The position numbers and the translations under genes were made by a program. The notes below the pieces were generated by a model, which saw nothing but the letters and a program-made list of their open reading frames with translations, was not told the DNA's origin and did not search any database. A DNA stretch of 38,708 bases from Bacteroidota bacterium (lineage in GTDB: Bacteria > Bacteroidota > Rhodothermia > Rhodothermales > Bin80), in the NCBI GenBank assembly GCA_026709065.1, contig JAPOTS010000123.1, positions 1-38,708 of the forward strand, read 5' to 3'. Positions 2,059 to 38,708 of the stretch are shown here, piece after piece; the stretch's first letter is position 1, and every line of letters starts with the position of its first letter.

Positions 2059-3846
2059 ATGTATATTGACTGTGTTCCGAATCGAAACTCCAACCCCACA
2101 TACCTAATCCGTGAGTCCAAGCGTGTCAATGGGAAACCGACCAAACGCACCCTCGCCAATATCACTAAACTCCCCTTGCCCATCATTGAGCAGATTAAAC
2201 TCCTGCTGAAAGGAGGAACCGTTGTCCAAGCGTTTGATGATATGTTTGATATCCAGAGTACTCTCCCGCACGGCCATGTCGCCGCCGTTTTGGGAACTAT
2301 GGAGCAACTGAAGATTCCAGAACTCATTGGGCCTAAGAATTCACGCTTTCGCCGACTGGTTCTTGGCATGATTGCCGCCCGCGTGTTGAGCCCTGCCAAT
2401 AAACTGGCTACGGGATACATGATGGATTCCGACTCCCCTTCCTCTACTCTAAACGAAGAGCTCGGCCTCAAACGCGTGGATCAAGACGATCTCTATGAAG
2501 CAATGGATCAATTAGTCACGCATAAAACCGACATTGAATGCAGATTAGCCAAACGCCATCTCAAAGAAGGGGCCCTGGTGCTCTGTGACGTGACCAGCAG
2601 TTACGTTGAAGGGCAAAAGAATGAACTGGCAGACTTTGGGTTCAGCAAAGATGAGAAACGCAACAAGAAGCAAGTCGTCATTGGTCTGATGACCGATGAG
2701 GATGGATGTCCTGTGGGCGTAGAGGCATTCAAGGGCAATACTGCTGATGTCAGTACACTCAGTACACAGATTGTGAAAATTCAAAAAACCTTTGGGCTTG
2801 AGAATGTGGTTCTGGTGGGGGATCGTGGGATCTTAAAGCAAAAGCAACTCAATGAAGAGATCATGCCTGTAGGACTGGATTGGGTGACGGCGATGCAGAA
2901 GAGTCAGATCCGAGAGATTGTAGAGCAAGAAAAAGTGCAGATGAGTCTCTGCGATCAGCAGAATCTCACTGAAATATATAGTGATTTGTATCCAGAGGAC
3001 CGGCTGATTCTATGCAAGAATCCCGTCTTAGCCGCCTCCAAGAAAGAGAAACGTGACAAACTGCTGCGCCTGACCGAGAAACTACTTGATCCAATTGTTG
3101 AAGCGACCAAGCGTGAATCCCGTAAACTCAAGGGAAAAGATAAGATTGGTGAGCGGGTTGGGAAAGTGATCAACAAGTACAAGATGGCAAAGTTCTTTGA
3201 TCGGGAGTATGGAGAGGAATCGTTTTCCTATTCGCGCAAAGAGGAGCTGATTGAAAAAGCAGAACTGTTTGACGGTGTGTATGCCATCCGTTCAAGTCTC
3301 AAGGATCATCCAGAGGCCGAGGAGTTGGTGGCCAACTATAAGCGTCTGTCGACGGTAGAGGTTGCATTCCGTACGATGAAAACTATATCCTTACACATCC
3401 GTCCGATTCATCACCGGATAAAAAATCGTGTCATCGCACATGTCTTTTTGTGTATGCTAGCCTATTATGTGGAATATCACATGCGTAAAAAATTAGCCCC
3501 CATGTTATTTGCCGAAGAGAAACCATTAGAGCGGCGTGCACAGCGCGAGGATGTGGTTGCACCTTCCCAACCCTCTGAGGCCGTTAAAAAGGCAGATACA
3601 GGTGAAAAGGTGATGAGCTTCGCCAATGTGCTTGATATGCTGTCAGGATTGTGCAGAACAGTCGTGATTCCTAAAATCAGTACGAAGAATAAACCTGAAG
3701 TCGTCATGGTACGCAAAATCAGTGCGACTCAAAAACGAGCGTTGAAACTTCTTGGGGTAGATTACAAGTAATTCAAATCCGTCAGTAGTAAAATTTTTCT
3801 CCTTGACTGCACCCCTCGGAGCAGTCTTATTTTTGCCCAAAAATCA
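1977..3846 (+). mobile_element. IS1634-type insertion sequence (approximate limits)
   Basis: The limits are set by an imperfect inverted repeat flanking the transposase gene. At 1977-1997 the plus strand reads TGCTGTTTTGGGTTAAAATA. The reverse complement of roughly 3827-3846 reads TGATTTTTGGGCAAAAATAA. They share a TTTTGGG core followed by an A-run. This is a visual match only, and no target-site duplication was confirmed. The element would be about 1.87 kb, a normal size for a one-gene IS of this family. It abuts a truncated IS110 gene on its right, suggesting nested or successive insertions. Confidence 0.45.
2059..3771 (+). CDS. IS1634-family transposase (IS4 superfamily, DDE)
   Basis: An intact 570-residue transposase that would catalyse cut-and-paste movement of its own IS. 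The DDE triad can be placed at D177 (LCDVTSSY), D255 (VLVGDRGIL) and E434 (STVEVAFRTMK). The last sits in the Y-(2)-R-(3)-E-(6)-K type signature typical of IS4-superfamily enzymes. The length and the long insertion between the second D and the E match IS1634 members. The ATG at 2059 gives the natural N-terminus (MYIDCVPNRNS). The C-terminal part after E434 contains a hydrophobic helix pair (VFLCMLAYYVEYHMRKKLAP) seen in these transposases. No frameshift or stop is present, so the element may be active. Family assignment is firm; the exact subgroup is inferred from length and motifs. Confidence 0.9.
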   Translation: MYIDCVPNRNSNPTYLIRESKRVNGKPTKRTLANITKLPLPIIEQIKLLLKGGTVVQAFDDMFDIQSTLPHGHVAAVLGTMEQLKIPELIGPKNSRFRRLVLGMIAARVLSPANKLATGYMMDSDSPSSTLNEELGLKRVDQDDLYEAMDQLVTHKTDIECRLAKRHLKEGALVLCDVTSSYVEGQKNELADFGFSKDEKRNKKQVVIGLMTDEDGCPVGVEAFKGNTADVSTLSTQIVKIQKTFGLENVVLVGDRGILKQKQLNEEIMPVGLDWVTAMQKSQIREIVEQEKVQMSLCDQQNLTEIYSDLYPEDRLILCKNPVLAASKKEKRDKLLRLTEKLLDPIVEATKRESRKLKGKDKIGERVGKVINKYKMAKFFDREYGEESFSYSRKEELIEKAELFDGVYAIRSSLKDHPEAEELVANYKRLSTVEVAFRTMKTISLHIRPIHHRIKNRVIAHVFLCMLAYYVEYHMRKKLAPMLFAEEKPLERRAQREDVVAPSQPSEAVKKADTGEKVMSFANVLDMLSGLCRTVVIPKISTKNKPEVVMVRKISATQKRALKLLGVDYK

Positions 3847-3881: not shown

Positions 3882-4298
3882 TCAAAATGGGAGTAAGTTA
3901 AGTTCTTCATCTGGAATACTGATCGGAGTCAGTAATCCAGCAACATAAAGAGTTGCAAGCTTTTGGGCATCCCGCCGATCGGTTTTTACCCGATCACCAC
4001 TGCGACTCGGAATCGACGAAGGAGCAATCACCTCGCACGAGATCCCATTGGCTTCTAACGTGCGCTGTAATCCAAATCCACATGACGACGCTTCATAACA
4101 GCAATGAAGCTGACCATGACGAGTCTGTACCTTCTGGAGATATTTTATCACCTTCGGTAGATCATGAGGTAATTCTCGCTCATCCAAGACCGCACCTGTC
4201 TTTGCATGATAGACACAAAAAGCAATCGTCTTTTTGTGCACATCCATCCCAACTGAGATCGAAGATGCTGAATTGAACGTTTTGATGTAGTTTTGCAT
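3882..4298 (-). pseudogene. IS110-family transposase, N-terminal fragment
   Basis: The 138-residue product is the DEDD (RuvC-like) N-terminal domain of an IS110 recombinase. It has D19 (GMDVHKKT), E69 (CYEASSCGFG) and D107/D110 (VKTDRRDAQKLA), in the family's standard spacing. Intact members are about 320-400 residues long and carry a C-terminal Transposase_20 domain with a catalytic serine. That whole half is missing here. Homology appears to stop after PDEEL, about residue 133, and the last five residues (NLLPF) look like read-through into foreign sequence. The break point near 3895-3900 lies close to the right end of the IS1634-type element. It is therefore a truncated remnant, expected to be non-functional. 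Confidence 0.85.
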
Positions 4299-11296: not shown

Positions 11297-11674
11297 TTAG
11301 AGATCATTCACATTGTCGGTTTCCAGTGAATTGGTTTCAGAAAGATTAGGTCTTAGGAGCGTAACATGATGCTGTATAATTTGAGAGTGAAATCTCTCGG
11401 GAATGCGAGCCCAATCAACCACCTCAACGATGAATGGTATTCTTGACTCTCTAAGCGCATCCTTCAATTCAACCAACTGATTCGTCGGAATTTTTTGAAG
11501 ATTTGGACCGCGTATGACAAGATCAAGGTCACTTCCATCGTGGCTTTGTCCATTCGTCCGACTACCATAGGCCCACACCTCAACATCTGGCAAGTGGGTA
11601 CGAAACAGACTAACGAGTTCTTTGTAATGCCTTGGTAAAAGATTTAAGGATTCAGTCATTTGAAGCTGCTTCAA
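11297..11674 (-). CDS. mntA: MntA-type nucleotidyltransferase antitoxin
   Basis: A 125-residue minimal nucleotidyltransferase. The catalytic signature GS-X10-D-X-D is complete: G37, S38, then D49 and D51 (WAYGSRTNGQSHDGSDLDLV). In characterised HepT-MntA pairs this enzyme transfers AMP to a tyrosine next to the toxin's RNase motif and so silences it. The gene overlaps the upstream HEPN gene by 23 bases and lies in the same operon, the standard order for toxin first, antitoxin second. The product is cytoplasmic. Family assignment is firm; the antitoxin role is by homology. Confidence 0.85.
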   Translation of the reverse strand: MKQLQMTESLNLLPRHYKELVSLFRTHLPDVEVWAYGSRTNGQSHDGSDLDLVIRGPNLQKIPTNQLVELKDALRESRIPFIVEVVDWARIPERFHSQIIQHHVTLLRPNLSETNSLETDNVNDL

Positions 11675-12077
11675 TGATATCTGCTAGTGCCTTAGCATCT
11701 ATGATGAAAGTTGGCATGAGTTTTAACGTGGCTTCTGCGAAGTCTTTACCGTAATCATGTACGGTGTAATTGCGTTGATCACGATAGTCCATCCATCGCT
11801 CAGTTGCGTCGGTATTGATTAAGTCATGGTGATTAGCATGACGGAATAAATCCTTAAAATAGAGTCGATCAACAGCTTGATTACTGGAAAAATATGGCCT
11901 TAAGCGCTTCCGAAGAAGCTTTCCGCATTGCTCAAGGATGATCTCAAACTCCTTCACACATGCGGCTCGGTAGATTTGATATAAGAGATCATCTTCTGAG
12001 TCATTGTTTTCCATCTCTTGAACTGCATGCTCAAGAGATGCAATGCATAAGCGAAGGAATGTCGTATCAATATTCAT
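11652..12077 (-). CDS. hepT: HepT-type HEPN toxin (HI0074 family)
   Basis: A 141-residue, mostly alpha-helical HEPN protein annotated in older literature as nucleotidyltransferase substrate-binding protein (HI0074-like). It carries the RX4HXY motif that marks HepT RNases: R102-NYTV-H107-D-Y109. The Arg and His form the ribonuclease site and the Tyr is the residue AMPylated by MntA. The ATG at 12077 gives the expected N-terminus (MNIDTTFLRLCIASLEHAV). It overlaps the downstream mntA-like gene by 23 bases, indicating coupled translation. Motif and partner are both intact, so the module could be active. Confidence 0.85.
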   Translation of the reverse strand: MNIDTTFLRLCIASLEHAVQEMENNDSEDDLLYQIYRAACVKEFEIILEQCGKLLRKRLRPYFSSNQAVDRLYFKDLFRHANHHDLINTDATERWMDYRDQRNYTVHDYGKDFAEATLKLMPTFIIDAKALADIIEAASND

Positions 12078-23545: not shown

Positions 23546-24624
23546 AGAAAATGAGTGTGATTGATTTATTGAATGCAATGATTGAGTTTCCATCATTGAG
23601 CGGGGAAGAAGATGAAATTTGCACCTTCATGCAATCTTATGTTGATCAACCTGGAGTTCAGAGTACTCGGATTGAAAATAGCCTTTACTTCTGGATTGGG
23701 GACGGTGATCATCGTTTGCTCATGGCATCTCATTTAGATGTTGTGCCTCCTTCTTCAAGTCATCCATACCCTCCATTTACAGCAACCCATGTAGGTGGAA
23801 TGATTTATGGGCGGGGATCGGTGGATGCTAAAGCATCTGGGGCTGCGATGACTTCTGCGCTTCTTGAACTGGCTGCGGAAGGATGGTCTCCAAAACAAGG
23901 GCAGCTCATTGTCGCACTGACTGAATGTGAGGAAACTGATTATGAGAATAATGGACTTCAGAAGTTATTAAACCAAAGCCTCGCCCGCCCTGATGCCGCG
24001 TTGGTCGGTGAACCGACTAACTTAGCACCAATTGTTGCACAAAAGGGACTATTGATTCTAAGATTGGATTCCATGGGAAAGACGGCTCATGCTGCACGTG
24101 ATAGTCTCGGTGAAAATGCTATATTGGTAGCTGCTGATGACATCCAGCGTTTGTCCAAATTCAAGTTTGAGCGAACTCATCCCATCTTGGGCGAAGTGAG
24201 CATGAATGTCACAACGATTCATGGCGGGACTGCTCGAAATGTAATTCCGGATTGTTGCACCATGTACTTAGATATAAGGAGCACTCCTGCCTATACTCAT
24301 ACTGAGATCGTTGATGCGATTAGTGATGTAGTCCAATCCAAAGTTTCTATCCACAGTGACAGAGTAGTCCCTGTATCCACAGAAATTGAAGAGAATATTG
24401 TTAAGGCATGCTTAAACGCGAGCCCAGTGAATCAACTTAACGGTTCCCCTACCGCTAGCGATTGGATCTATCTACAAGGAATCCCAGCTGTAAAGATTGG
24501 ACCTGGCTCAAGCGAGTTATCCCACACTCCCAATGAGCATATAGATCAAATAGAGGTCACTGAGTCCGTCAAGCTGTATAAGGAAGTAGTTAAGTGGTAC
24601 TTTGAGAGATCAACGCAAGATTGA
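23542..24624 (+). CDS. argE: N-acyl-citrulline/ornithine deacylase (M20 family)
   Basis: A 360-residue metal-dependent M20 peptidase-type hydrolase that removes the acyl group at the end of the acylated branch. In pathways with ArgF' this acts on acylcitrulline. Metal ligands can be placed at H64 and D66 (SHLDVVPP), D95 (GRGSVDAK), the catalytic Glu pair E130/E131 (TECEETDYENNG) and E157 (VGEPTN). A late His lies in LSHTPNEHI. The C-terminal lid and dimer domain is read around residues 170-280. It is the last gene of the operon, overlapping argB by four bases. Confidence 0.9.
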   Translation: MKKMSVIDLLNAMIEFPSLSGEEDEICTFMQSYVDQPGVQSTRIENSLYFWIGDGDHRLLMASHLDVVPPSSSHPYPPFTATHVGGMIYGRGSVDAKASGAAMTSALLELAAEGWSPKQGQLIVALTECEETDYENNGLQKLLNQSLARPDAALVGEPTNLAPIVAQKGLLILRLDSMGKTAHAARDSLGENAILVAADDIQRLSKFKFERTHPILGEVSMNVTTIHGGTARNVIPDCCTMYLDIRSTPAYTHTEIVDAISDVVQSKVSIHSDRVVPVSTEIEENIVKACLNASPVNQLNGSPTASDWIYLQGIPAVKIGPGSSELSHTPNEHIDQIEVTESVKLYKEVVKWYFERSTQD

Positions 24625-24707: not shown

Positions 24708-25181
24708 TTATGATTTTCGTCGAATGGTACTCGCGAATGTGACGAACGCCTTGCGATCACTGATTTTAGTCTTGGTAAAGGCTATGATTGCCTTCCTTGC
24801 ATCTTCTATATTCTTCAGCACTAAAGATCTGTAGAAAGTCTCGTCTGGATTGTAATCTGCATTATATCTCATTAATTGTAACCGATCAAACTCAACACAA
24901 AACTTTTGTATTTCAGGGGGGAAATCTTGCTGAATATCTTTTCGTTTACAACACGACAAGATTTGATGATGAGAGATAGAGCGATAGGCTTGTAACCATG
25001 CTTTATTGTTTCGATTTTTCGGTGACGCTCCGCTAAGAACATCTGCATAAGTCTGACAAATACAATGAAACATCGCATAATAAGCCGAACTTACAGCTCG
25101 GCGTAATTCCGACTGCCGAGGCTTGCTTCCTTCCCCTAGGGCAAGATTGACTGCAATTTCAATTAGATGCACTGAATTCAT
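24708..25181 (-). CDS. HEPN-like domain protein
   Basis: A 157-residue helical protein matching the general HEPN outline. It has an N-terminal helix with RRAVSSAYYAMFHCICQTY, a central loop RSISHHQIL that carries an R-X4-H-like pattern, and a late helical block with MRYNADYNPDETFYRSLVL. HEPN proteins of this YYAMF type are common in defence and toxin-antitoxin settings and are often RNases or RNA binders. The ADYNP block is shared by a widespread family of unknown biochemistry. The ATG at 25181 is the only suitable start. Upstream on the same strand lie the tandem small genes, 168 bp away, which could encode its partner. Toxin function is an inference. Confidence 0.6.
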   Translation of the reverse strand: MNSVHLIEIAVNLALGEGSKPRQSELRRAVSSAYYAMFHCICQTYADVLSGASPKNRNNKAWLQAYRSISHHQILSCCKRKDIQQDFPPEIQKFCVEFDRLQLMRYNADYNPDETFYRSLVLKNIEDARKAIIAFTKTKISDRKAFVTFASTIRRKS

Positions 25182-25349
25182 TGCGGCTAATCGCTGTTAT
25201 GAAATTTTTAAATGGTGAATGAAGCTCCATTGAATCAATCAGATTTGATTCAATTTATGAACTATATGTCTCATTCCTAATGATTAATGGTAGCTAGTAC
25301 CACTCAGTTGAGAGTGCAAGCTTAGGATACGTGAGTTAGATCGCAAATT

Positions 25350-25688
25350 TCAGGCTAGAAGCTCTTTGGGAGTATTCTCCATATAATCATCGTATTCAAT
25401 ATATGAAATTGAGGGAAAGCGCTCTTCATTCATTTCTAAAAGTTTAGATTCTACAAGCCAAAAAAATTTATGTCTCCTATTATAATTAAGGTCTTTTTTA
25501 AAGCTGTATACGAAAGCGATATCAAGGTGATCATTCTCCTCAAACGCAAGTGGTTCTCGGATTCTAATGAGCTCTACCTTAGCAGTTGGGAAATGGTCAT
25601 CAAAAGCATTCTTTAAGAAGAGCTCAAGTTCAGTCAGTGGTTGAGTGACTCTCTTGAATTGATGACGTTTTTTCGTCCAAGCGTCCAT
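25350..25688 (-). CDS. Tandem small protein, copy 1
   Basis: A 112-residue soluble protein of unknown family. It begins MDAWTKKRHQFKRVTQPL and ends DDYMENTPKELLA; the centre mixes beta-like strands (KVELIRIREPL, LDIAFVYSF) with charged helices. No signal peptide, membrane segment or catalytic motif is visible. About 101 of 112 residues are identical to copy 2; differences cluster in the middle (residues 48-77). It stands 168 bp upstream of the HEPN-like gene on the same strand. An antitoxin or partner role is possible but not shown. Confidence 0.65.
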   Translation of the reverse strand: MDAWTKKRHQFKRVTQPLTELELFLKNAFDDHFPTAKVELIRIREPLAFEENDHLDIAFVYSFKKDLNYNRRHKFFWLVESKLLEMNEERFPSISYIEYDDYMENTPKELLA

Positions 25689-25963
25689 TGTGTTAGTTGA
25701 GTATGTGAATGGTTAACATAGTACTTTACATCACATAGGAAAACATGTTCCATCAAGAAATTGAAGATTCACACTTACAATTTCATCATGATCTCAATGC
25801 CTGAGATGCATTCATGAGTGTACCCTTAGTTTTGCAAGCTCCATTGTCTGGATGATTTTCTCTTATTGAACCAATGTATATCATGTAAGCACATCGGTGG
25901 TATTGATCAATAGATAGACAATGAAAATTCTAAACTTGATGGATAGATTAAACTGAAATGAAG

Positions 25964-26302
25964 TCAAGCCAGTAGTTCTTTGGGAGTATTCTCCATATAA
26001 TCATCGTATTCAATATATGAAATCGCGGGAAAGCGCTCTTCATTCATTTCTAAAAGTTTAGATTGCACTAGCAAAAAAAATTCTCTTCTCCGATTATGCT
26101 TGAGGTCTTGTTTAAAGCTATACACGAAAGCGATGTCAAGGTGATTAATCTCTTCAAACCAAAGCGGTTCTCGGATCCTAATCAGCTCAACCTTAGCAGT
26201 TGGGAAATGGTCATCAAAAGCATTCTTTAAAAAGAGCTCAAGTTCAGTCAGTGGTTGAGTGACTCTCTTGAATTGATGACGTTTTTTCGTCCAAGCGTCC
26301 AT
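25964..26302 (-). CDS. Tandem small protein, copy 2
   Basis: A 112-residue paralogue of copy 1 with about eleven substitutions, among them A48W, a two-residue change just after it, and several changes in the basic stretch near 65-74. The N-terminal 47 residues and the C-terminal 19 are identical to copy 1. Both copies keep full-length frames, so selection seems to hold them open. The upstream 275-285 bp is also duplicated, so each copy may have its own promoter. Function unknown. Confidence 0.65.
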   Translation of the reverse strand: MDAWTKKRHQFKRVTQPLTELELFLKNAFDDHFPTAKVELIRIREPLWFEEINHLDIAFVYSFKQDLKHNRRREFFLLVQSKLLEMNEERFPAISYIEYDDYMENTPKELLA

Positions 26303-26585
26303 CGTGTTAGTTGTGCATGTGAATGGTTAACACAGTTTTATACACCACATGGATAATGTGTTCCATGAAGAAAATGAAATCTCACACTTACAATTTCATC
26401 ATGATCTCAATGCCTTAGAGGCATGCCTGACCGTTCCAAGTGTTCTGCAATACTCCAGGGATTGATCAATGATTTTCTCTATTAATGCCAGTGAATTTAA
26501 AAAATGGACAGCACATCAATAGTGTCGGATATCAAATAGACCAGTAAAAACTCAATAGTTGTGGATTGATTGGAACCGTAAGAAG

Positions 26586-26923
26586 TTAAGCCAGTAGTTC
26601 TTTGGGAGTGTTCTCCATGTAATCGTCATAATCAATGTAAGAAACATCTGGAAAACGATCTTCTTTATTTTCAGAGAGTTTAGATCTCATGACTCCTATG
26701 AATTCTACGCTCTTCTTAACATTTAAGTCTGCATTTGCAATAAATACATATGCAATATCTATATAATTATTCTCTTCAAAAACAAGAGGTTCGCGAACTT
26801 TGATAAGCTCGAACTTGGCGTTGGGGAATTATTGTTCAAAAGCATTGATTGCGAAATCTTCAAGTTCATTAAGGGCTCAGTCACTCTTTTAAATATAAGA
26901 TATGTAATTTGCCAGTGGTTCAT
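26586..26923 (-). pseudogene. Tandem small protein, decayed copy 3
   Basis: The minus strand from an ATG at 26921-26923 to a TAA at 26586-26588 aligns with copies 1 and 2 from end to end (338 versus 339 bp). KRVTEPL, then FPNAKFELIKVREPL, and DDYMENTPKELLA at the end are recognisable across frames. One base is lost near 26869-26871 and a TAA interrupts the corrected frame at 26829-26831. It is therefore a pseudogene. It is clearly more diverged than copies 1 and 2 are from each other. Confidence 0.8.
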
Positions 26924-27528: not shown

Positions 27529-30500
27529 CTAATCATAGAGCTCTGGCTCATTGTCTGTTGATTCAGTGTTGAGTGTTCTTTTACTGCTCTTTGGTCCGTC
27601 ATTTTGTGCCTCAACTTTGGTTCGGGCATGATTCTCTGCAAGTAATCGCTTCAATACTTTTCGGCGGGCTTTTGGGCTGATGGTATATCGGATACGGTCA
27701 TTCTCGGGGAGCGTTTCCACCTCGTGAAAATCATGTTCAAGGTCAAGATCATGCCATCCATAGGCATCACGAACAGCGATGTCAAGGCTGACATGAAGAC
27801 GGCGGAGTTCAAGTATTCCCTCATAACCCGCAGTGGCAGTTTCCTTGTCTTTTTTGGAACTCAATGCTGTTATTTCGGGGGATAGATCGCGGTCGTGAAA
27901 TAAATTATACAAGTCCGTCAAACCAAGCCAAAGTGACAGCATCAACTCTTTACGATGAGCGTGATAACGCTCTCCAATCTGTTTGAGATCTGCATTTGAC
28001 GTTTTCCAGAGTCCTTGGGGGAAAGTGAATGTTTGAAAGCATTTAGAGGGGGAATAGCGGAGTCCTTGGCCGAATGAACTGCTGAATCTACGAGCCCAAA
28101 CTTCGTGGATATTAGATTGAAGTACTGATAAATGATCCCATCTATCAATCGTGAAAATAACTGCATCTGTAAATACAGAGTCAGTTGAGATACCTGAGAA
28201 GCATAGATATTTCGTAGTCCGAGCTGCTGCAAAACATTGCTCAATATCTTTAATCTTACTGTATAGCCCAGATGCTATTGCACCAAACTGCCACCAATTT
28301 TCTCTGCGGCTACGAATAGGATTCACATCCCTTTCTGGTTTAACTAGAGTTTTGATTCGTTCAAGTGGTTCCAAATAATCCGAGGCATGTTCCAGTGTCC
28401 AATCATGGAAGTTTATAATGAAGCGGGTGGGAGTTTGAAGAGGATTCTGATTCAAATTCTCACAATTGACTAGAGGCATTATGACCTCTGCATTCCTTGA
28501 ATCAGAGGCAATCAGTAGATCCATCTCAGATTGAGTAAGAACAAATCCGTTACCAATTATTGTAGAACCTATGAACATTGAGTTGCTATTCTCAAATAGA
28601 ATATTTGGTTCACCAAGATCTTCATCTTGTTCAAAAAATGTATTGATCATCTCTGCTGGCTGTTTGTCAAGCATCTTAGAACCATTCCACTTTCCCTTGT
28701 AAATTGATAAAGAGGATACAACTAGGTTGGCAACTCCTGTCCATTTTACTCCAGGGATGGCCATATTAATATCTCCACCCGCATTGACTATCTGATCTAA
28801 ACTATCTTTACGAATTCTCCCATCAATAATTGAATTAGTTGTGATGATAGCTAAAAAACCACCTTCTTTTAGTAAATCGTACATTCGTCGGAGGAAGTAG
28901 ACCACTAAGTCACTCAAACCTACAGGAGCATAGTTCCATTTGATACATTCACAAAAGGCATTTCCGTAGCTTCCGCGAAGTAACTGCCCTCCCAAATAAG
29001 GAGGATTACCAAGAATACAGTCAAACCCGCCCCGCTTCATAATCTCTGGAAATTCCAAAAACCAGTGAAAGAAACGCTTTTGTCGACTGATCTGGAGAGC
29101 ATTATTAATTTGATCTTCCGTAGGCTTTGATTGTCCGTTGTAATACGCACGAAACTCACCATCTGTAATGAGTTTATGCTTTTCACTGGGTGTCTTTGGT
29201 GTATAAAATTGTGCAATCGGAATATCTGCAATCGTCCGCAAATACCTCAAATCCCCTCCCTGATCAAAATCATCAAACTGCTCTTGTTTGATCTGTAACT
29301 CGGCAGGAGTATCATCTGGAAGATCCGAAACGGCTACAGATTCTTCATGTGCTGATTTTAGCCGCTGAGATGCATTATTGATATACTGAATGGACAACTG
29401 CCCTTGCTGATTCAATTCCTTTTTATTACGCTTGCGATATACCGTAGCTAATTCTTTGTCATCACTTTGTAAAGCTTTGAATGCCTCAACCGGTACACCT
29501 TGTTTGAAATCATTAAAATGGGCAAAGCCAACAATAGCATTACCCCACTTGATATGGTGGTCCAAAAAATTCAGAGGCTTTCCAGGAATATGTGCTTCAA
29601 GCCAGAGTGCAACCTTACATAATTCCACTGCTAATGGATTCAGATCTACACCATAAATGCATTCACTGATCACTTCACGAAGGGCATCACGATAGGCCTC
29701 AGGAGATGATTGCTCCTCGCCTGATTGAACGATGGCCAACTGAGTAGCAATCCGCCGGGCCGCGGCAAGAAGAATATGACCAGAGCCACAAGCAATATCA
29801 GCAACCCTTAAATTCAACAATGCACTTGCTGGATCAGATTTTTTCAGACATGCATCAATCAGATGGTCCAGTGAATGTTTAATCAAAGGCTGTACCAAAT
29901 CATCGGGCGTATAGTGAGAGCCCGTTGCAGAGCGTTCCTTTCCCTTTCGGAATTGAAATCTCACCTGATTTCCATCCACTACGAATTCGGATTCAAACTC
30001 AAGGAGCCCCTCATAGACCGACCCAAATTCCTCCACATTCAATGCCGCATAATTGACACGGATGAGCTGGCGACTCTCTGGATGTCGGTAAACACTCAAA
30101 GAGTGTAGACACTTTTGAAAGACCTCATTACCCAGTTTGCAACCGTTTAGATCACGCAAGGCTTCGGTGGAAAACAAATGGCCCGCCAAAGGAGTGATGC
30201 CAATATGATGCCCCGGTCCATCGGCCTCAAATAAACGAAAACATGCCAACAATGCAAACCAGAGATTATAGTGGCGATCTACATGAAGTGCACGATTCTC
30301 CGAAAGATGTCGCAAACGAGATACACTGTAATAGCCGTAATAAATATCCCGATGCTCCTTTTTGGCATTTTCACCATAGACGAGAGCCCTCTCCTCTATC
30401 ACCATCAAAAAGAGTAGACGATAAATGAGCCGCAAGATCTCTTGATAATAGTCACCAGCCAAGAGTTTCCCTTCCTTTATCGCATTTCGCAAATCATGAT

Positions 30501-31275
30501 TACTTGGATGTCTCAAAAAACCATTACCAAAATTGAGCACAGCATCTTTGACTGCACTGCTGAGTCCTTCCCGAATCCTAGCACCCTGCTCAAGAGAATC
30601 CTGATGGTACTGCTCAATCAAACTCTCGGCAGCCGTGTCATTGGAAAGAGGTAGACGAGTAGCATGAACTATGCGGTATAGAATTGCGAAATCCGCAAAG
30701 AGTTTATCTCTAAAAATGCGGTCCAGATCAAATTCAAGATAACTCAGCTTGACGAGCCTTGAACTATCTCTCAGAAGCCGTAACACAGATCCATTAGTCA
30801 CAATGCCGTAGAGTTGCTCATGCAGGTTGAGAAATTCCTGAATCAGTGCATGAGCCGACATCCGACGACGGGCATTTTCAGGTTTCTTGTCAAGCCCAGA
30901 GGAATCTTTAGCTCCTATGATATGCACTGGAGTATTTGCTCGGTTAGTTGCAATATGGTGGAAGGCATAAGTGCGTCCATCAATGATAGCACCTTTTTGT
31001 TGATACTGAATGTCATAATGCAAGAGCCCTAACAATGGGATGATCCACTGATTACGGGTCTCGGTTGTAGCATTGTCTCTTGCGGTTTCCAACTTGCGCT
31101 GGAAGATACGCCAATAGTCAAATGCATCCGCCCATGTGCGCGCGATTTCATCCTTGACCTTATCCTTAGAATCAAGTCCAAAATCAACCGGTCGTTGGCC
31201 TTGCAGCTCCTCAATCTGTCCAAAAATATCTGGAGATAGAATGGATCCTTCAATACGGATACCAGGATAATTCAT
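27529..31275 (-). CDS. drmMI: DrmMI-like adenine-specific DNA methyltransferase
   Basis: A 1248-residue protein of the Eco57I/PglX type of N6-adenine methyltransferases. The SAM-binding motif I is VADIACGSGHILLAAARRIA (near residue 490) and the catalytic motif IV is LGNPPYLGG (NPPY near 756). A long N-terminal helical domain and a C-terminal target-recognition region flank the catalytic core, as in PglX and DrmMI. No nuclease signature was recognised at the N-terminus, so it is read as a modification enzyme and not a type IIG restriction enzyme. In DISARM-type systems it would mark host DNA. It starts one base after the stop of the upstream SNF2 helicase gene, so the genes are one operon. A generic orphan BREX-like methylase is the alternative. 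Confidence 0.8.
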   Translation of the reverse strand: MNYPGIRIEGSILSPDIFGQIEELQGQRPVDFGLDSKDKVKDEIARTWADAFDYWRIFQRKLETARDNATTETRNQWIIPLLGLLHYDIQYQQKGAIIDGRTYAFHHIATNRANTPVHIIGAKDSSGLDKKPENARRRMSAHALIQEFLNLHEQLYGIVTNGSVLRLLRDSSRLVKLSYLEFDLDRIFRDKLFADFAILYRIVHATRLPLSNDTAAESLIEQYHQDSLEQGARIREGLSSAVKDAVLNFGNGFLRHPSNHDLRNAIKEGKLLAGDYYQEILRLIYRLLFLMVIEERALVYGENAKKEHRDIYYGYYSVSRLRHLSENRALHVDRHYNLWFALLACFRLFEADGPGHHIGITPLAGHLFSTEALRDLNGCKLGNEVFQKCLHSLSVYRHPESRQLIRVNYAALNVEEFGSVYEGLLEFESEFVVDGNQVRFQFRKGKERSATGSHYTPDDLVQPLIKHSLDHLIDACLKKSDPASALLNLRVADIACGSGHILLAAARRIATQLAIVQSGEEQSSPEAYRDALREVISECIYGVDLNPLAVELCKVALWLEAHIPGKPLNFLDHHIKWGNAIVGFAHFNDFKQGVPVEAFKALQSDDKELATVYRKRNKKELNQQGQLSIQYINNASQRLKSAHEESVAVSDLPDDTPAELQIKQEQFDDFDQGGDLRYLRTIADIPIAQFYTPKTPSEKHKLITDGEFRAYYNGQSKPTEDQINNALQISRQKRFFHWFLEFPEIMKRGGFDCILGNPPYLGGQLLRGSYGNAFCECIKWNYAPVGLSDLVVYFLRRMYDLLKEGGFLAIITTNSIIDGRIRKDSLDQIVNAGGDINMAIPGVKWTGVANLVVSSLSIYKGKWNGSKMLDKQPAEMINTFFEQDEDLGEPNILFENSNSMFIGSTIIGNGFVLTQSEMDLLIASDSRNAEVIMPLVNCENLNQNPLQTPTRFIINFHDWTLEHASDYLEPLERIKTLVKPERDVNPIRSRRENWWQFGAIASGLYSKIKDIEQCFAAARTTKYLCFSGISTDSVFTDAVIFTIDRWDHLSVLQSNIHEVWARRFSSSFGQGLRYSPSKCFQTFTFPQGLWKTSNADLKQIGERYHAHRKELMLSLWLGLTDLYNLFHDRDLSPEITALSSKKDKETATAGYEGILELRRLHVSLDIAVRDAYGWHDLDLEHDFHEVETLPENDRIRYTISPKARRKVLKRLLAENHARTKVEAQNDGPKSSKRTLNTESTDNEPELYD

Positions 31276-31276
31276 C

Positions 31277-34135
31277 TTAACTCTCTGGCAAAAGAATGTA
31301 GATCCCCATTAAATCCATCGGCAACACTGGGTAGACAACCTGATAACGACGAGGCCCAATCAATGCACTGAAGCGTTCATGAGCATTTACGAGTTGCTTG
31401 GATTGGTTTTCTGCGATCTGAGTGAAGACATCATCAAACCGATCAAGGAGTTTCAGGTCATTCTTAAGAAACCCTGCACGGGCTTCCTTTGAGAGATTGC
31501 TACTGGCTTGAACTTTGCCTAACAATGTATGCACATGCTCATGATCAAGGTGCTCCGGCTGATCGGGAGTACCTCTCCATCCCCACAAAAGCATCTCTTC
31601 GGCAACAATCTGATGTTCCCCTCTTTGCTTTTCAATGACATTTCGACATCTAAAAAGCAGTATTGAAGTCTTGATATCGACTTGATTGGTGCGAATGACT
31701 GCGGCGCGTGCGGCACGCCTGCCCTCACGATCCATCGTATTGGCCATCACTAAATGGCAGAGCTGTTCAACAAAGTGATGATTTCGGCCAATATAGCGAT
31801 ACCCCTCAGGGGTAGGAGATTCAAAACTGATTTTGATGATCTTCTGCTGAGGTAGAAGTCCCGTGAGCTGATTGGGTAAGTTGCCAGACACGATGCCATA
31901 TCCATTGCGTTCCCTGGCAATCTGAACACCAAAGAGATTGCGCAATACCCCCGTAACAAAATCCTTGACCGCTGAGGGATCCCCAATCGCCTCATCAATA
32001 TGTTTGAGATCTTCTTCAATCTCTTGTGCCTTGATGGTATTCTGGGCAAAAATGCTACGAGAGAGTTTTTCGCGCTTGACGGCCTCATCAATTTTGCGAG
32101 AAACCTTCTTTTGTGCTTCCTTTGCCTCTTCAAAATCACCCAGATCAAATAATGCACCCTGCTGAGGTGTCTCATACTTTTGGATTTTGCGATGTGGATT
32201 CAAAAGAAGAGACTGTGTGATCGTATCCATGATACTCTGAGAATTTTCAGGGAATGGAACATTGATTCCTGTAGATCGCTTGATCTCTCGTACTTTGCGC
32301 AGTAACACATCAAGTACAATTCCGTCAATCGGATTATCATTACCATAAAGTAGACAGATTTTGACTTCAGGTGCCTGCTGACCAAACCGATCTACCCGCC
32401 CTTCTCTCTGTTCAAGATCATTAGGGTTCCATGGAAGATCATAGTGCAATACCGCAGAGAACAACTCCTGAAGATTGATTCCTTGACTCAAACAATCGGT
32501 AGCAATCAATAGTCGTGGATGATCACCCGCCATATCTTCAATTCTCTGTTTGCGCAGATCATCAGGCTCTTCGCTTGTAATCACTTCCACAACCAAACCC
32601 GTGATCGTTTTGAACAGCAACGGCTTGAGATGTTCTCCCAAGTAGTTCGCCGTTTCAATAAAGCGACAAAAAATCACTGGATTGAATCCGTTTTCAATCC
32701 AATCTTTGACAATCTCCGAAGCAACTTCAAGTTTTTCATCGTTACCGATTCCCATAAACTCTTCAAGTTGTTGGGCAAAACGACGCAGTTGCTTCCGTTG
32801 ATACTCACTCCAGTCCTCACGGTCCATCACCTGAATAGGAACCGTATCTGTTAGCACTCCGTCTTCGGAGTCTCCAATTGGGTTGTAATCGTCTAATTCT
32901 TCACCAGTGGAAACTTCGGACATATCTATCGGCGTTAATTTATCGCGTCGTCTCTGTAGCATTTTGACTCCTGCACTTGGGCTTGACATGATGCCACGAA
33001 GTAAACCTAAGGCCGTCCAATAGTGTGCGCGCTTCACCGTTACTCCTTCAGGGCCAGGTGTAACAAGTTTGCGTGCAAACTCAACAACATCGTTAAAAAA
33101 CTCAAGGTAGTCTCCCCTCAGAGTATAATCCCACTCAAACGCGTCTCGCTCTGGGAAAGGTGTATCTTCGTCCATCCACTTCTCAACATCTACCCGCTTG
33201 CGTTGCACAAAATGCTGTGCCAATGCACGACGCTCATCCTGAGTAGATGTGGGCAGATCTAAATCCTCAAATTCGCGTTTCAGTAGTCCTAATATAGAAT
33301 GAAACTCCTCTGGCTTCCCACTATGAGGGGTGGCCGTGAGTAAGATCAGATGTTGCCCTTTTTTCTTTGAAATATCATTGAGCAAGTGATGTCGGAGTTG
33401 CTGAGCAGTTGAAGCTCCATGCGGACGGGCACATGTGTGGGCTTCGTCAACAATAATGAGTTCTGGACACTGCTCTATAAATACATTACGGCGACTGTCT
33501 CCCTTAATGTAGTCAATACTAATAATTTGATATCGGTAGTGCTCATAAACACTCACATCTCCTGGGACCATACGATCGAGTCTTGCCTGCGTATTGGAGC
33601 GGATGATAACGGCATCAATCCCAAATTTTGACTGTAATTCTTGTTGCCATTGATCACAAAGATGAGGAAGACAAATCACCGCAAATCGTTTGATTTGAGC
33701 CCGTTCCATCATTTCACGAAGTATGAGTAAAGCTTCCACCGTTTTACCTACACCGACATCATCTGCAATCAAAAGACGTACAACTTCTTGGCGCATAGCC
33801 ATCACCAAAGGCACAATCTGATAGGCACGCGGTCGAAACGATAGCTTCGCAAAGCAACGGAACGGGCCTGCACCATGACGGAAAGCTAAACGTGCGGCAT
33901 CATAAAGAAAACGTGCTGTTGTAATATCCCCCAGGTCCAAAGGGGTTGGATAATCAAACTTAGCATCCTTGGGGATATCTGCTTTAATTCCCAAGGGTAG
34001 ATAAATCCCCGTTGACTCCTCTTCAGAGCCACCAAGCGGTTTGACAATTAGTAGATCGGGTATATCTGATGGAAGCACCACCCACTCCCGACCACGAAGA
34101 GAAACCAGCTTACCCGGTTGCAAAGCTACACTCAT
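31277..34135 (-). CDS. drmD: DrmD-like SNF2 helicase
   Basis: A 952-residue superfamily 2 helicase of the SNF2/RapA type. Walker A is ADDVGVGKTVEA (K131), motif II is DEAH at 230-233 (IIVDEAHTC), motif III is LLTATPHSG, and the second lobe carries FCRFIETANYLGEHL, ATDCLSQGINLQ and motif VI QREGRVDRFGQ (about 576-587). The N-terminus has a small beta-rich segment and the C-terminal third is charged and helical. This architecture and the adjacent Eco57I-type methylase match DrmD of class 1 DISARM. The start overlaps the upstream helicase stop by four bases (ATGA), preceded by AGGAAGG. All catalytic motifs seen are intact. Confidence 0.82.
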   Translation of the reverse strand: MSVALQPGKLVSLRGREWVVLPSDIPDLLIVKPLGGSEEESTGIYLPLGIKADIPKDAKFDYPTPLDLGDITTARFLYDAARLAFRHGAGPFRCFAKLSFRPRAYQIVPLVMAMRQEVVRLLIADDVGVGKTVEALLILREMMERAQIKRFAVICLPHLCDQWQQELQSKFGIDAVIIRSNTQARLDRMVPGDVSVYEHYRYQIISIDYIKGDSRRNVFIEQCPELIIVDEAHTCARPHGASTAQQLRHHLLNDISKKKGQHLILLTATPHSGKPEEFHSILGLLKREFEDLDLPTSTQDERRALAQHFVQRKRVDVEKWMDEDTPFPERDAFEWDYTLRGDYLEFFNDVVEFARKLVTPGPEGVTVKRAHYWTALGLLRGIMSSPSAGVKMLQRRRDKLTPIDMSEVSTGEELDDYNPIGDSEDGVLTDTVPIQVMDREDWSEYQRKQLRRFAQQLEEFMGIGNDEKLEVASEIVKDWIENGFNPVIFCRFIETANYLGEHLKPLLFKTITGLVVEVITSEEPDDLRKQRIEDMAGDHPRLLIATDCLSQGINLQELFSAVLHYDLPWNPNDLEQREGRVDRFGQQAPEVKICLLYGNDNPIDGIVLDVLLRKVREIKRSTGINVPFPENSQSIMDTITQSLLLNPHRKIQKYETPQQGALFDLGDFEEAKEAQKKVSRKIDEAVKREKLSRSIFAQNTIKAQEIEEDLKHIDEAIGDPSAVKDFVTGVLRNLFGVQIARERNGYGIVSGNLPNQLTGLLPQQKIIKISFESPTPEGYRYIGRNHHFVEQLCHLVMANTMDREGRRAARAAVIRTNQVDIKTSILLFRCRNVIEKQRGEHQIVAEEMLLWGWRGTPDQPEHLDHEHVHTLLGKVQASSNLSKEARAGFLKNDLKLLDRFDDVFTQIAENQSKQLVNAHERFSALIGPRRYQVVYPVLPMDLMGIYILLPES

Positions 34136-37100
34136 CGAACCTTCCTAAATATATCAGGCCGCTCAGCAACCTTTGCTACAAGATTTTCACGATAATGCCA
34201 GCACCACACCTCGTCACCCCGAGCAATGATCAGTTGTCTTTGATTCTCATCACGCTCACGCACTTGAGGGTCATCATGTGGAGATCCATCGCAGAAGATC
34301 CATATTCGAGGTTCATAATAGAAGTCTGGCTGGCAATAGATTCCAGAGACACGTTTCTGTACTTGATCAGGTAATCGTAATCCGTTTTTATACAGGTAAT
34401 CAATGAAAACCCGCTCCGTAGATGAATTTGGATCGATATGGTTGAGAATATGCAGGTACTGCTCTTCATAATCTCTGGATGATCCATGCACACGAATCTG
34501 AATGTCCGCATCAATGAGTTTGGTCAGCGTATCACGAATTAAAAACCGGTCTATTCGCTGATGATCACGCTGATTGTAATAACTCAAGAGATCATCATAG
34601 GACGCAGGGGCCTTGTACGATTCATCGTCATACTGGCAAATCATTTCCGCCTCTTGAATGATTCTTCGGAAAATCTGAGGATCTTCCACGAACTGCGATA
34701 AAATGCCCAAACTCCCCTCTGCCGCTTCATAGACCAGAATGCGAGGAGATTCTGGATCTCCTATCTCCGTCACACCAATCTCACTGGATTCAACTTGAAA
34801 AACGGACTCAATAGCCCGTTTGAGTGCATACTGAAGGGTAAGGATCCCATTGCGTTCCAAATCCAATGATTCCGTAGACTCAATGTAGAGCGCATCTGCC
34901 AAATTGGATGTCCAAAGTTTGACCAAACAGGGCTTCTCATTGACTTCATCCTCTGTCTTTGGCATCTCTTTACACCAATGCCCAGAAGACATTTTTAATG
35001 GAAATCCTTCGGTTTGGCGTGATTTCCAACCCCGGTTAACATGGATCAGTCGGGCAGTTGGAATAAATTGAAGCGTTAGCAGGTGGTCTTCTCCGATGCT
35101 CACCATTGCTTCACATATACTTTCAAAGTTGCCCCCATCAACATGTAAGAACGACTCAATGTCATACCCTCTTGAGAGTCGCTCTTCTTCCTCGCATGTG
35201 ATCCGCTCCGTTTCTTCACCCCTTGATTCGGTCATCTCAATCAGATGATGAAGATACTCTGTGTTGTCAGCATCACTAAGATTGTCTCCAGAAAATGGAC
35301 AGATCTCTAAATCAGACTGCTCATGCATCAGACAATAACCCGCACGCCGATTGATTTTCATCTCTATCAAAGAAGATTCGGCATCTTGGACAACCATGTA
35401 CGAAATTCTATATTTTGATCCATTGTAATAGATCATATTTCGTGGTCCATATTCGCGAAGGGCTACCTCACGGCTACGAGATATATATTCACCAGACGTA
35501 TGACTGGTTGGTACAAAGATTCGCAGGGGCAGGCGTGTGAAGTTATAGCCTGGCAGAAAGCCTTCAGCGGCCAAATATTGATACGGATAAAACTCACTGA
35601 AGTGAAGATATCCACTACGATCATTGCGTAGCAAATTGAGCTGTCGGTTTGCCTGATCCATCTGCCGCTTGTATCGGCGATATTCGTCACTTCCAACTTT
35701 GAGTAACCCAGTATCAATCTTTTGTGTGGCACGGGTGAGTAAAGATCGTGCCGATTGGTACAGATTTCTCCATCGTTCAAGGGCTGTGTCAAGGCTCTTG
35801 ACCATCTCCTTCAGGTTTCGGTCAATCCAGTCATCGCTGTACCATGTGTTGGGTATTGCTTCCAAATCCTGGGAAAAATCTGCAATCGCCCTTAGGAAGG
35901 TAGACCTAATTGACCTCAAAGCTTCTGGTCCAAGCTTCAGTCCCTGTTCAATACCAGAAGAAAGTGGCATTTCTGAATGATTCTCATCCACAAGCCGCAT
36001 CAAAGATGACTGCTTCCCGCCAGTGTGATCCAGTCCGGGTAAACCGGTGGTGCTGATCACAAGGGCATGAAGATGTGATCTTAACAACTCCTGATTCAAG
36101 ATATCAATACGTGGTGCCTGAACGATACCAGCGACCATGTCAACCTGATTCTTGAAGTAGTGACGGTCATGTGGGGCAAAGCCTGAACAATAGGTAAAAA
36201 TCAATGCACCCTGCCCACTCCGTCCTGCTCGCCCTGATCGTTGAACATAATTGGACGCGTTGGGAGGTGCATTTCGCATGTGAACAACGGTCAATCCACC
36301 AATATCCACTCCCAGTTCCATGGTTGGCGAACAATAAAGAGCACTAATGGAGTCGCTACGAATACGCTTTTCATCAAGAATCTTGTTGGAATCGTCCACA
36401 TACCAGTCAGCCCGAAAACGATCCTCACGATCTTGACGATCAAAAACACTCAGTTGTCCAGTGTGATCCTCAGCTATCAGTCGTTTGCCCTCAGCATAGT
36501 TGGCTGAGTAGATTTTCTGAAAGAATGCATTGGGAGAGCTCATGTTTTCTTTGTAGGAACGCCTCTTGATTGGATCCTGTCGTACCTTCTTCCTATCTCC
36601 AAGCTTCCATAGAATCCTTTCAATGCGAAGTTGGAATACGGGAATCTTTTCCTTATTCGTATTGAGTGCACTCTCCTCATACAGATAGCCAGCATCTTTC
36701 AACTTTCGCATGAGTTGCAGAATGAACACGTTGTATCGCTCTCCACGAAGATGATCTGGGTTCAAGTTTACTTTCGTCACCCAATCCTTGATATATTTTC
36801 CAAAAGAGCTCCTGCTCCCCATACTCTTGTGCGAGAAACGCTCTCGTTTATGGAGCGTCTCCAGACGAAGTACATACGGTGAAGGTAGTTCCTCTTTGGA
36901 ATCAATACTCCATGGTTGCTTCAATTTTTCTCGAAAATGTCTCTTGAATTTTCTGAGATGGTTCGGCTTTAAATAGTTCTCACTATAGAGAGCGAACTCA
37001 AGCCTGAAGTATTCAAGGATATCGGTTAAAAACTTCTTGCGTTCAATTTGATCAAGGCGGTTGACAATTTCAACATCAGACCAAAATTGATCCTCAGCTA

Positions 37101-38708
37101 CAATGTCATCAAGGTTTTTGTAATCAATTAGAACAAGAGCACATTGCTCTAAATTGGGGAGTACAATGCGCCAACTTCGTTGCAGATCAGCCAGAGCACG
37201 ATAGAACAGATAGTCGCGGAGTGCCTCATCAAACTCCTTCTTGACCTGAGCTAATTCTGGCTCAACATCTATATTGCCATAATCTCGGAAGGGTAAATCC
37301 AGAGATGTAAAGATGGCATCACCCAAGGTTGCAAAATCAAGAGTTCCATTCTCAGAGGTCTTCAATGCGTTCCATATGGCAGCACGCAAGCGAACAACTT
37401 GAATAAAGTCATTGAAGTGTCCAGACTGCAAAGCGGCATCTTGACGATTATCGGTAAAACTCAACAACTTTTGATCTTGCAAGGAATACTCAGAATCATG
37501 GAGATACTTTAAGATCAAAAAAGAAAGAGTCGTCGTGGATGTGCTACGACCTTCACTTCCCAAAGATGTAAGCTTTGTACCTTCCTTGGTCTTGGTGTCA
37601 AAAAATACACCACCAGTGGGATCAAAAAGTAGGGGTGCCTGCATGAACCACCCCCAGTATTTCATGGGGGTGGTTTTGGAGCATTTTCCCGTTTCGTCGA
37701 AATAGTATTTGTGAGGAAATTGATCCTTCTTCTTTGGATGTACTACGATCCTTCCACCCGCTCGGGTCTGGAACCATGCACTTGGCAAATTCTGGCGATC
37801 CTGATCAGGATTCCAGATATCATCACCAACAATCAAATAGCCATCAGTGGCTGATAGATCTTCATCTCCACTAGAACGGAACTCACGAGGAATAAACTGA
37901 TCCTCTGCCAGAGAAACACAGATAAAAGGATGGCCAGTGGTCCGACTAAACACATTGGGGAAAATGGGCTTGGAACGATCATCATGCTTATAGATCCCTG
38001 GTTTAAGAAGGGTAATATATCGGTCTTCACCTTGATCAAGCGTCGTATAAACCGATCCCGTTTGAGCGATAAACTGATGAAGTTTGTATGGTAGTACCGT
38101 ATACCCCCCCCCATTTTTTTCGATAACCCTGTTCACCATGCTAATCCATTGCAGGGATTTTTCAAGGATCTTTTGGCATAATTCTGATGTATGTCCAGAA
38201 TCTTCTGACAGTGCCTCTACGACCTTATTTAAGCCCATCGGCCTGCGGCGAACAATGCTCCCGTCAGGTTGAATCTCCAGAGCAATACGACGCTCAAGCC
38301 AGATAATAATAGGATGCTCACAGAGCTCGGTGCGAGGAGCATCAACCTGAATACCATCGTTAATGGAAGCGTGGAGTTCAGATTTGGATGGTAGCTGATC
38401 AAGGGTGCTTCTAAAAGATGGTTTGAGAGTTTCTTCTACAATCTGCTCCTCCTGAAAGGGTTTTCCAAAAATCGTAATCGCAGTACGTGCAACATCTTTA
38501 CGGTGAGAGTTGGAGTCCTCTACCGACACCATCGTCGCTGAAGTCCCAATGCAACAGATGGATTGTTGACAATGTGAGCGAATACGTCGGATGAGCAGTG
38601 AGACATCCGCACCTTGCCTACCACGGTAGGTATGTCCCTTAATATTCACGACAATTGAGTTTAAAATTAATTTCACCAAAACTGAATCTTTTTTCCGAGG
38701 ATCTAGTT
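34132..38708 (-). CDS. DUF1998-type helicase, DrmA/DrmB-like (5' end outside window)
   Basis: At least 1524 residues read in one open frame that runs off the window edge, so the N-terminal lobe with Walker A is not visible. HTYRGRQGADVSLLIRR and CIGTSATM (motif III) belong to the first helicase lobe. CSPTMELGVDIGG and YVQRSGRAGRSGQG (motifs V and VI) lie near residues 780-830 of the visible part, and a DUF1998-like region follows to about 1390. The last 80 residues (YCQPDFYYE, FCDGSPHDDP, EVWCWHY) resemble a Vsr/DUF559 nuclease fold. Motif II, normally DExH just before HTYRG, reads NIKGH with one extra residue. In DISARM, helicase (DrmA) and DUF1998 (DrmB) parts are separate proteins; here they are one. 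An in-frame TTG at 38679 is not believed to be the start. Confidence 0.78.
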   Translation of the reverse strand, partial: LDPRKKDSVLVKLILNSIVVNIKGHTYRGRQGADVSLLIRRIRSHCQQSICCIGTSATMVSVEDSNSHRKDVARTAITIFGKPFQEEQIVEETLKPSFRSTLDQLPSKSELHASINDGIQVDAPRTELCEHPIIIWLERRIALEIQPDGSIVRRRPMGLNKVVEALSEDSGHTSELCQKILEKSLQWISMVNRVIEKNGGGYTVLPYKLHQFIAQTGSVYTTLDQGEDRYITLLKPGIYKHDDRSKPIFPNVFSRTTGHPFICVSLAEDQFIPREFRSSGDEDLSATDGYLIVGDDIWNPDQDRQNLPSAWFQTRAGGRIVVHPKKKDQFPHKYYFDETGKCSKTTPMKYWGWFMQAPLLFDPTGGVFFDTKTKEGTKLTSLGSEGRSTSTTTLSFLILKYLHDSEYSLQDQKLLSFTDNRQDAALQSGHFNDFIQVVRLRAAIWNALKTSENGTLDFATLGDAIFTSLDLPFRDYGNIDVEPELAQVKKEFDEALRDYLFYRALADLQRSWRIVLPNLEQCALVLIDYKNLDDIVAEDQFWSDVEIVNRLDQIERKKFLTDILEYFRLEFALYSENYLKPNHLRKFKRHFREKLKQPWSIDSKEELPSPYVLRLETLHKRERFSHKSMGSRSSFGKYIKDWVTKVNLNPDHLRGERYNVFILQLMRKLKDAGYLYEESALNTNKEKIPVFQLRIERILWKLGDRKKVRQDPIKRRSYKENMSSPNAFFQKIYSANYAEGKRLIAEDHTGQLSVFDRQDREDRFRADWYVDDSNKILDEKRIRSDSISALYCSPTMELGVDIGGLTVVHMRNAPPNASNYVQRSGRAGRSGQGALIFTYCSGFAPHDRHYFKNQVDMVAGIVQAPRIDILNQELLRSHLHALVISTTGLPGLDHTGGKQSSLMRLVDENHSEMPLSSGIEQGLKLGPEALRSIRSTFLRAIADFSQDLEAIPNTWYSDDWIDRNLKEMVKSLDTALERWRNLYQSARSLLTRATQKIDTGLLKVGSDEYRRYKRQMDQANRQLNLLRNDRSGYLHFSEFYPYQYLAAEGFLPGYNFTRLPLRIFVPTSHTSGEYISRSREVALREYGPRNMIYYNGSKYRISYMVVQDAESSLIEMKINRRAGYCLMHEQSDLEICPFSGDNLSDADNTEYLHHLIEMTESRGEETERITCEEEERLSRGYDIESFLHVDGGNFESICEAMVSIGEDHLLTLQFIPTARLIHVNRGWKSRQTEGFPLKMSSGHWCKEMPKTEDEVNEKPCLVKLWTSNLADALYIESTESLDLERNGILTLQYALKRAIESVFQVESSEIGVTEIGDPESPRILVYEAAEGSLGILSQFVEDPQIFRRIIQEAEMICQYDDESYKAPASYDDLLSYYNQRDHQRIDRFLIRDTLTKLIDADIQIRVHGSSRDYEEQYLHILNHIDPNSSTERVFIDYLYKNGLRLPDQVQKRVSGIYCQPDFYYEPRIWIFCDGSPHDDPQVRERDENQRQLIIARGDEVWCWHYRENLVAKVAERPDIFRKVR

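Follow-up and report, generated by a model that had tools for sequence, protein, structure and literature searches.

Upstream of a probable HEPN RNase gene in a Bacteroidota contig of 38,708 nt (hereafter the window; genome G000), a small gene occurs three times in direct tandem, which raises the question of what this gene does beside a HEPN gene and why it has been multiplied. The initial annotation proposed that the copies were immunity or antitoxin genes diversifying under selection. We refer to the small gene as the partner, number its copies from the HEPN-proximal end, and give sites in other genomes as genome:contig.

Structure of the Repeat Array

The direct repeats start at positions 25350, 25964, and 26586, and their spacing of 614 and 622 bp, with identities of 89 and 64% over 300 nt, is far beyond chance, confirming the three ~615-bp units, each with a 112-codon gene, that the initial annotation had described (Table 1). 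Repeat and ORF comparison bore out its account of the individual copies as well: copies 1 and 2 are both open, with 112 codons each, 90% protein identity and 307 of 339 bases identical, and copy 3 (338 bases, beginning with ATG) is one base short near codon 19 and is interrupted by an in-frame TAA, the remainder reading on to a normal C-terminus at ~58% identity to copy 1. As claimed, copies 1 and 2 also share a repeat in their upstream regions (72% over 273 nt); comparison showed no such repeat ahead of copy 3. No HEPN remnants were found between the partner copies of the window; here the partner alone was duplicated, whereas at another site, G029:C5, the whole pair was. No known RNA families were found between positions 24500 and 27530, and a promoter scan gave no more matches than in shuffled sequences.

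TABLE 1. Positions of the HEPN gene, the partner copies, and the intervening regions in the window.
Feature	Position	Strand	Evidence or comparison
HEPN gene (3′ gene of the pair; 157 aa), probably encoding an RNase toxin of AF0298/HEPN-T type	24708..25181	-	Pfam, AF2 model, fold match, conserved residues
Spacer between partner copy 1 and HEPN gene, 168 bp (second species: 164 bp)	25182..25349	-	No Rfam match
Partner (presumed antidote) gene, copy 1, open, 112 aa	25350..25688	-	
Region upstream of copy 1	25689..25963	-	75% end-to-end orthology with inter-copy spacer of second species
Partner gene, copy 2, open, 112 aa	25964..26302	-	
Region upstream of copy 2	26303..26585	-	Repeat also upstream of copy 1, 79% over 178 bp
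Copy 3 of the partner gene, a pseudogene with a one-base deletion and one TAA	26586..26923	-	

Age of the Array

The genome of a second species of the genus (G002) carries an orthologous site on contig C152 (JAPOUL010000140.1), where a HEPN gene that faces the same argE gene as the window HEPN is preceded by two partner copies at a matching period (614/613 bp). The 275-bp inter-copy spacer of this site aligns end to end with the window spacer between copies 2 and 1 (75%). Because the two-unit array is orthologous, the array predates the split of the two species, between which argE has a dS of 0.84. Finding the same 614-bp period in an independent genome also rules out an assembly artifact, a possibility that the initial annotation had raised. 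At the argE locus, different copies have decayed in the two species, the distal copy in G000 and the HEPN-proximal copy, which is frameshifted, in G002, and at least one intact partner copy has been kept in each. The distal copy at a further G002 site (G002:C124) is also decaying.

Selection and Probable Gene Conversion

Both genes of the pair are under purifying selection, with dN/dS values of 0.17 for HEPN and 0.15–0.18 for the partner. Between copies 1 and 2, dN/dS is 0.15, and 0.19 in the divergent middle, contrary to the diversifying pressure that had been supposed. The reported clustering of substitutions in a central region is real (the longest identical run is 71 nt, P ~0.012 under uniform placement), but it does not serve as a sign of diversification, since dS varies along the gene in the same way, from 0.09 in codons 1–38 to a maximum of 0.69 in codons 39–82 and 0.36 in codons 83–112. 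Because synonymous changes thus cluster with the others, the pattern points to homogenized ends (gene conversion) and not to a diversified middle; together with the low dN/dS, it leads us to reject diversifying selection on the copies. Over their first 117 nt, partner copies within a genome are 98% (G000) and 90% (G002) identical, compared with 82–91% between genomes, a pattern that fits the copies being kept alike by gene conversion of their ends.

The HEPN Protein

The HEPN protein matches Pfam PF05168 at 16.7 bits, below the 22-bit gathering cut-off. Its AF2 model (pLDDT 88) is an all-helical bundle of the kind expected of the HEPN fold; the top PDB match was 2hsb (AF0298), and the HEPN chains 8xeh, 8xdj, 1wwp, and 2q00 were among the best matches (E 0.05–0.4, each weak singly), with the HEPN chains of HEPN-MNT structures coming after 2hsb. 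Residues R22, S31, Y35, H39, H71, R105, A108, D109, and Y110 are invariant in 16 of 16 diverse relatives. Where the canonical motif is Rx4-6H, all 16 have RxxADY, the histidine being replaced by Tyr, and all 16 retain both the arginine of that motif (R105) and an alternative N-terminal histidine (H71, H39), the combination to look for according to earlier work (PMC3710099). In AF0298-like HEPN-T proteins the Rx4-6H histidine is absent, and a conserved histidine in the helix 2-3 insert has been proposed as its substitute (PMC3710099); H71 lies in that insert in the HEPN model. Given the sub-threshold Pfam score and the replaced histidine, the protein could be non-catalytic; judged from its conserved residues and modeled fold, it is a probable RNA-cutting toxin of AF0298 type.

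The Partner Family

The partner had no match in Pfam, NCBIfam, PADLOC, or PHROGs, and it contains no recognized DNA-binding or antitoxin domain, which counts against a toxin-antitoxin (TA) reading. In profile comparisons, which did not extend to the partners at G029:C8 and G012:C14, both further diverged, window-type partners (A1) matched order-level partners (A6) at 91% (E 9e-7), and the joint A1+A6 profile matched alphaproteobacterial partners at 96% (E 2e-9), with 60 column-shuffled controls reaching at most 4%. An ERFP.I motif near the C-terminus is common to the window and several alphaproteobacterial partners. Homology of the partners across the genus, order, and Alphaproteobacteria groups is supported by these comparisons.

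The AF2 model of the partner has the order alpha-beta-beta-alpha-beta-alpha and is of modest confidence (pLDDT 66; three close sequences). In the fold search, BolA-like folds ranked above nucleotidyltransferase folds (1ylq and 1no5, E 0.2–0.4), with no match significant, and a degenerate nucleotidyltransferase origin of the partner is possible. That the partner is itself an MNT antitoxin is ruled out, as the GS..DxD motif occurs in 0 of 21 partners and the profile comparison against real MNT gave 1.4%.

Pairing of Partner and HEPN Genes

The small gene is the constant 5′ neighbor of the HEPN gene, and the order is partner-then-HEPN wherever both are in view. Eight sites of the genus have a partner 5′ of HEPN (the window, G000:C132, G002:C152, G002:C82, G002:C124, G002:C31, G006:C5, and G006:C27); at G002:C82 an insertion with transposase-like genes separates the two, and at G000:C73 the contig breaks off within a partner that aligns at its 3′ end with the G002:C31 partner. 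When 395 genomes of the phylum were searched with a HEPN profile, relatives turned up within the order, in G054 (2), G039 (2), and G029 (2; another family of the order) and in G012, each preceded by a gene of ~100–130 aa. The pair is also found on Rhizobium, Methylobacterium, and Acidisoma plasmids, with a gap of 3 bp or an overlap of 17 bp, and replication genes (repABC or rep/parA) adjoin it in several: on Rhizobium plasmids it lies beside repABC with the 3-bp gap, and in Acidisoma the overlapping genes lie beside rep and parA. In Methylobacterium, independent searches detected the partner and HEPN (32% identity), and the two genes lie side by side. Among plasmid records with HEPN, 28 of 29 also match the partner query, and the remaining one (Acidisoma) has a partner gene upstream; 8 of 36 plasmid records with a partner are without HEPN. 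This search for homologues and their neighbors leaves a clear tie to HEPN genes, and the refuting observation named in the initial annotation, homologues that never lie near HEPN genes, thus did not occur.

A conserved pair of small genes, presumed antidote first, on mobile elements is what TA systems in general present, and an antitoxin-first gene order has been described (PMC3710099). The gap between partner and HEPN within the genus, 150–375 bp, counts against a TA reading, as the usual TA operon is tight. In viral collections no HEPN relative was found in IMG/VR (pattern search) or in phage records (tblastn), despite which the phage family phrog_5176 matches at 6e-8.

Loss and Duplication

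HEPN is often lost before the partner. A broken HEPN accompanies an open partner in six clear cases (G000:C132, G006:C27, G002:C31, Rhizobium CB3171, and two units of G029:C5), and no HEPN was found beside the partner at G002:C17 or on the R. gallicum and Rhizobium 007 plasmids. No intact HEPN with only broken partners was seen where the region upstream of HEPN is on the contig. If breakage followed gene length only, the six-to-zero asymmetry would have a probability of ~0.04, in a sample that is small, partly clonal, and partly non-independent. The clearest example is G029:C5 (L061, 1-2420), where the pair is triplicated. One HEPN there is intact, a second has an internal deletion, and the third is truncated roughly a dozen codons in, and each of the three partners is open, the contig start cutting into one of them. 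Orphan antitoxins are known to be frequent (PMC7192599).

It is quite possible, and we lean only slightly against it, that the triplication is neutral tandem duplication followed by decay and says nothing about function, an account compatible with a TA reading of the pair itself. Decay is indeed seen in copy 3, in the second G002 copy, and in the distal copy at G002:C124. Partner duplication nevertheless recurs at at least four sites in three lineages (the window/G002:C152, G002:C124, G029:C5, and G012:C14), and two window copies stay open under purifying selection.

A Toxin-Antitoxin-Like Reading of the Pair

On balance, the locus is probably a two-gene TA-like module that pairs a HEPN RNase of AF0298 type with an antidote acting by binding and without enzymatic activity, the antidote gene having been duplicated before the species split. 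The partner would be made first and bind the HEPN protein, keeping the site around R105/H71 from cleaving RNA. Were the partner lost or degraded, HEPN would be released and would cleave RNA through R105 and the alternative histidine H71 (perhaps H39) and not through the usual Rx4-6H. Duplicates may raise or safeguard the supply of partner, with gene conversion homogenizing them and surplus copies free to decay while at least one stays intact. Toxicity, RNase activity, and neutralization by binding are what we infer for the two proteins, and neutralization by binding is likelier than AMPylation because MNT, the known HEPN antidote, has a catalytic motif that the partner lacks. The idea of immunity or antitoxin genes beside HEPN thus survives in its antitoxin-like part, which is the best reading by context (constant HEPN pairing, with defense genes often near), and falls in its diversifying pressure.

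The pair could instead be an abortive-infection or restriction-modification-linked defense unit in which the partner acts as sensor or adaptor and, instead of restraining the HEPN RNase, switches it on when a phage component is encountered, which we consider unlikely. Defense genes do adjoin pairs, namely a DrmMI/DpdE/DruE-like operon in the window, type ISP restriction-modification genes at G006:C5 and G029:C5, a DUF4357 candidate-defense gene at G006:C27, and type I-G Cas genes, and because of these neighbors a defense role is plausible; several sites, however, are plasmid maintenance regions with replication genes instead, and a partner that outlives HEPN and is amplified without it would be odd for an activator. 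Distinctly improbable is an inactive or housekeeping complex in which a HEPN that binds substrate or RNA without catalysis is joined by a degenerate subunit of nucleotidyltransferase type. The canonical Rx4-6H is absent and nucleotidyltransferases are among the weak fold matches of the partner, but all 16 diverse members keep H39, H71, R105, and ADY unchanged, BolA-like folds outrank the nucleotidyltransferases, the MNT profile match is negligible, and a patchy plasmid- or island-borne distribution with frequent loss does not suit a housekeeping function.

Relation to Known HEPN Systems

If the TA-like reading is right, its nearest counterpart in organization is HEPN-MNT (HepT-MntA, type VII), which likewise consists of two small genes with the antidote 5′ of HEPN, is mobile and patchy, and lies near defense genes. 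Unlike in HEPN-MNT, the 5′ protein here has neither the GS..DxD motif nor a detectable MNT profile match, and the HEPN protein has R..ADY in place of Rx4-6H. In RnlA-RnlB/LsoA-LsoB and HEPN-ParA/Soj dyads, a HEPN RNase is paired with a non-MNT partner protein. By description, the present pair appears similar in combining a probable HEPN RNase with a non-MNT partner, which here belongs to another, unannotated family; both kinds of dyad are among the described HEPN families (PMC3710099). The HEPN-T proteins of the AF0298/UPF0332 type (2hsb, PF05168) provide the best fold match and resemble the window protein in the kept arginine, the lost Rx4-6H histidine, and the position of H71 (PMC3710099), but here the Pfam score is sub-threshold and the partner is not MNT.

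No paper describing HEPN with this partner was found in the literature; the HEPN fold and the TA logic are already known, and neither the partner family nor its association with HEPN turned up in the searched libraries or papers. The pair is likely missed by current defense and TA scanners because the partner families are without annotation in Pfam, NCBIfam, and PADLOC and HEPN falls below the Pfam cut-off. More tentatively, the pairs may represent an undescribed TA family of Bacteroidota and Alphaproteobacteria, in which an AF0298-type HEPN RNase is matched with a small non-enzymatic antidote whose gene is repeatedly amplified and homogenized, possibly for dosage buffering or for neutralization of several HEPN paralogues of the same genome. 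A HEPN class without the canonical histidine, coupled to a partner that lacks the AMPylating motif, would reveal a second means of restraining HEPN RNases, and the pair would test the 2013 proposal of an alternative histidine in AF0298-like HEPN domains.

Genomic Surroundings

A defense operon occupies 27529–38706 of the window (minus strand). Its predicted products are a DrmMI-like methyltransferase, an SNF2 helicase resembling DpdE/DrmD, and, cut short by the end of the contig, a DruE-like C-terminal part. It is not a complete named system but mixes relatives of Druantia, DISARM, and Dpd. At G039:C1 (L059, 4338-7000), type I-G CRISPR genes (csb1/csb2) and a relative of the pair are ~0.2 kb apart. 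On conjugative Rhizobium repABC plasmids (L066, 4632-5450, and L067), the pair is downstream of repC and annotated as hypothetical proteins only. The window also contains a canonical HEPN-MNT pair at 11297–12077 (minus strand; Pfam NTase_sub_bind, 6.9e-17, and Polbeta) with a GSRTNGQSHDGSDLD motif, its MNT (11297–11674) carrying GS..DxD. Near the contig start, transposase-like reading frames, judged from their translations only, occupy 2059–3771 and 3882–4298.
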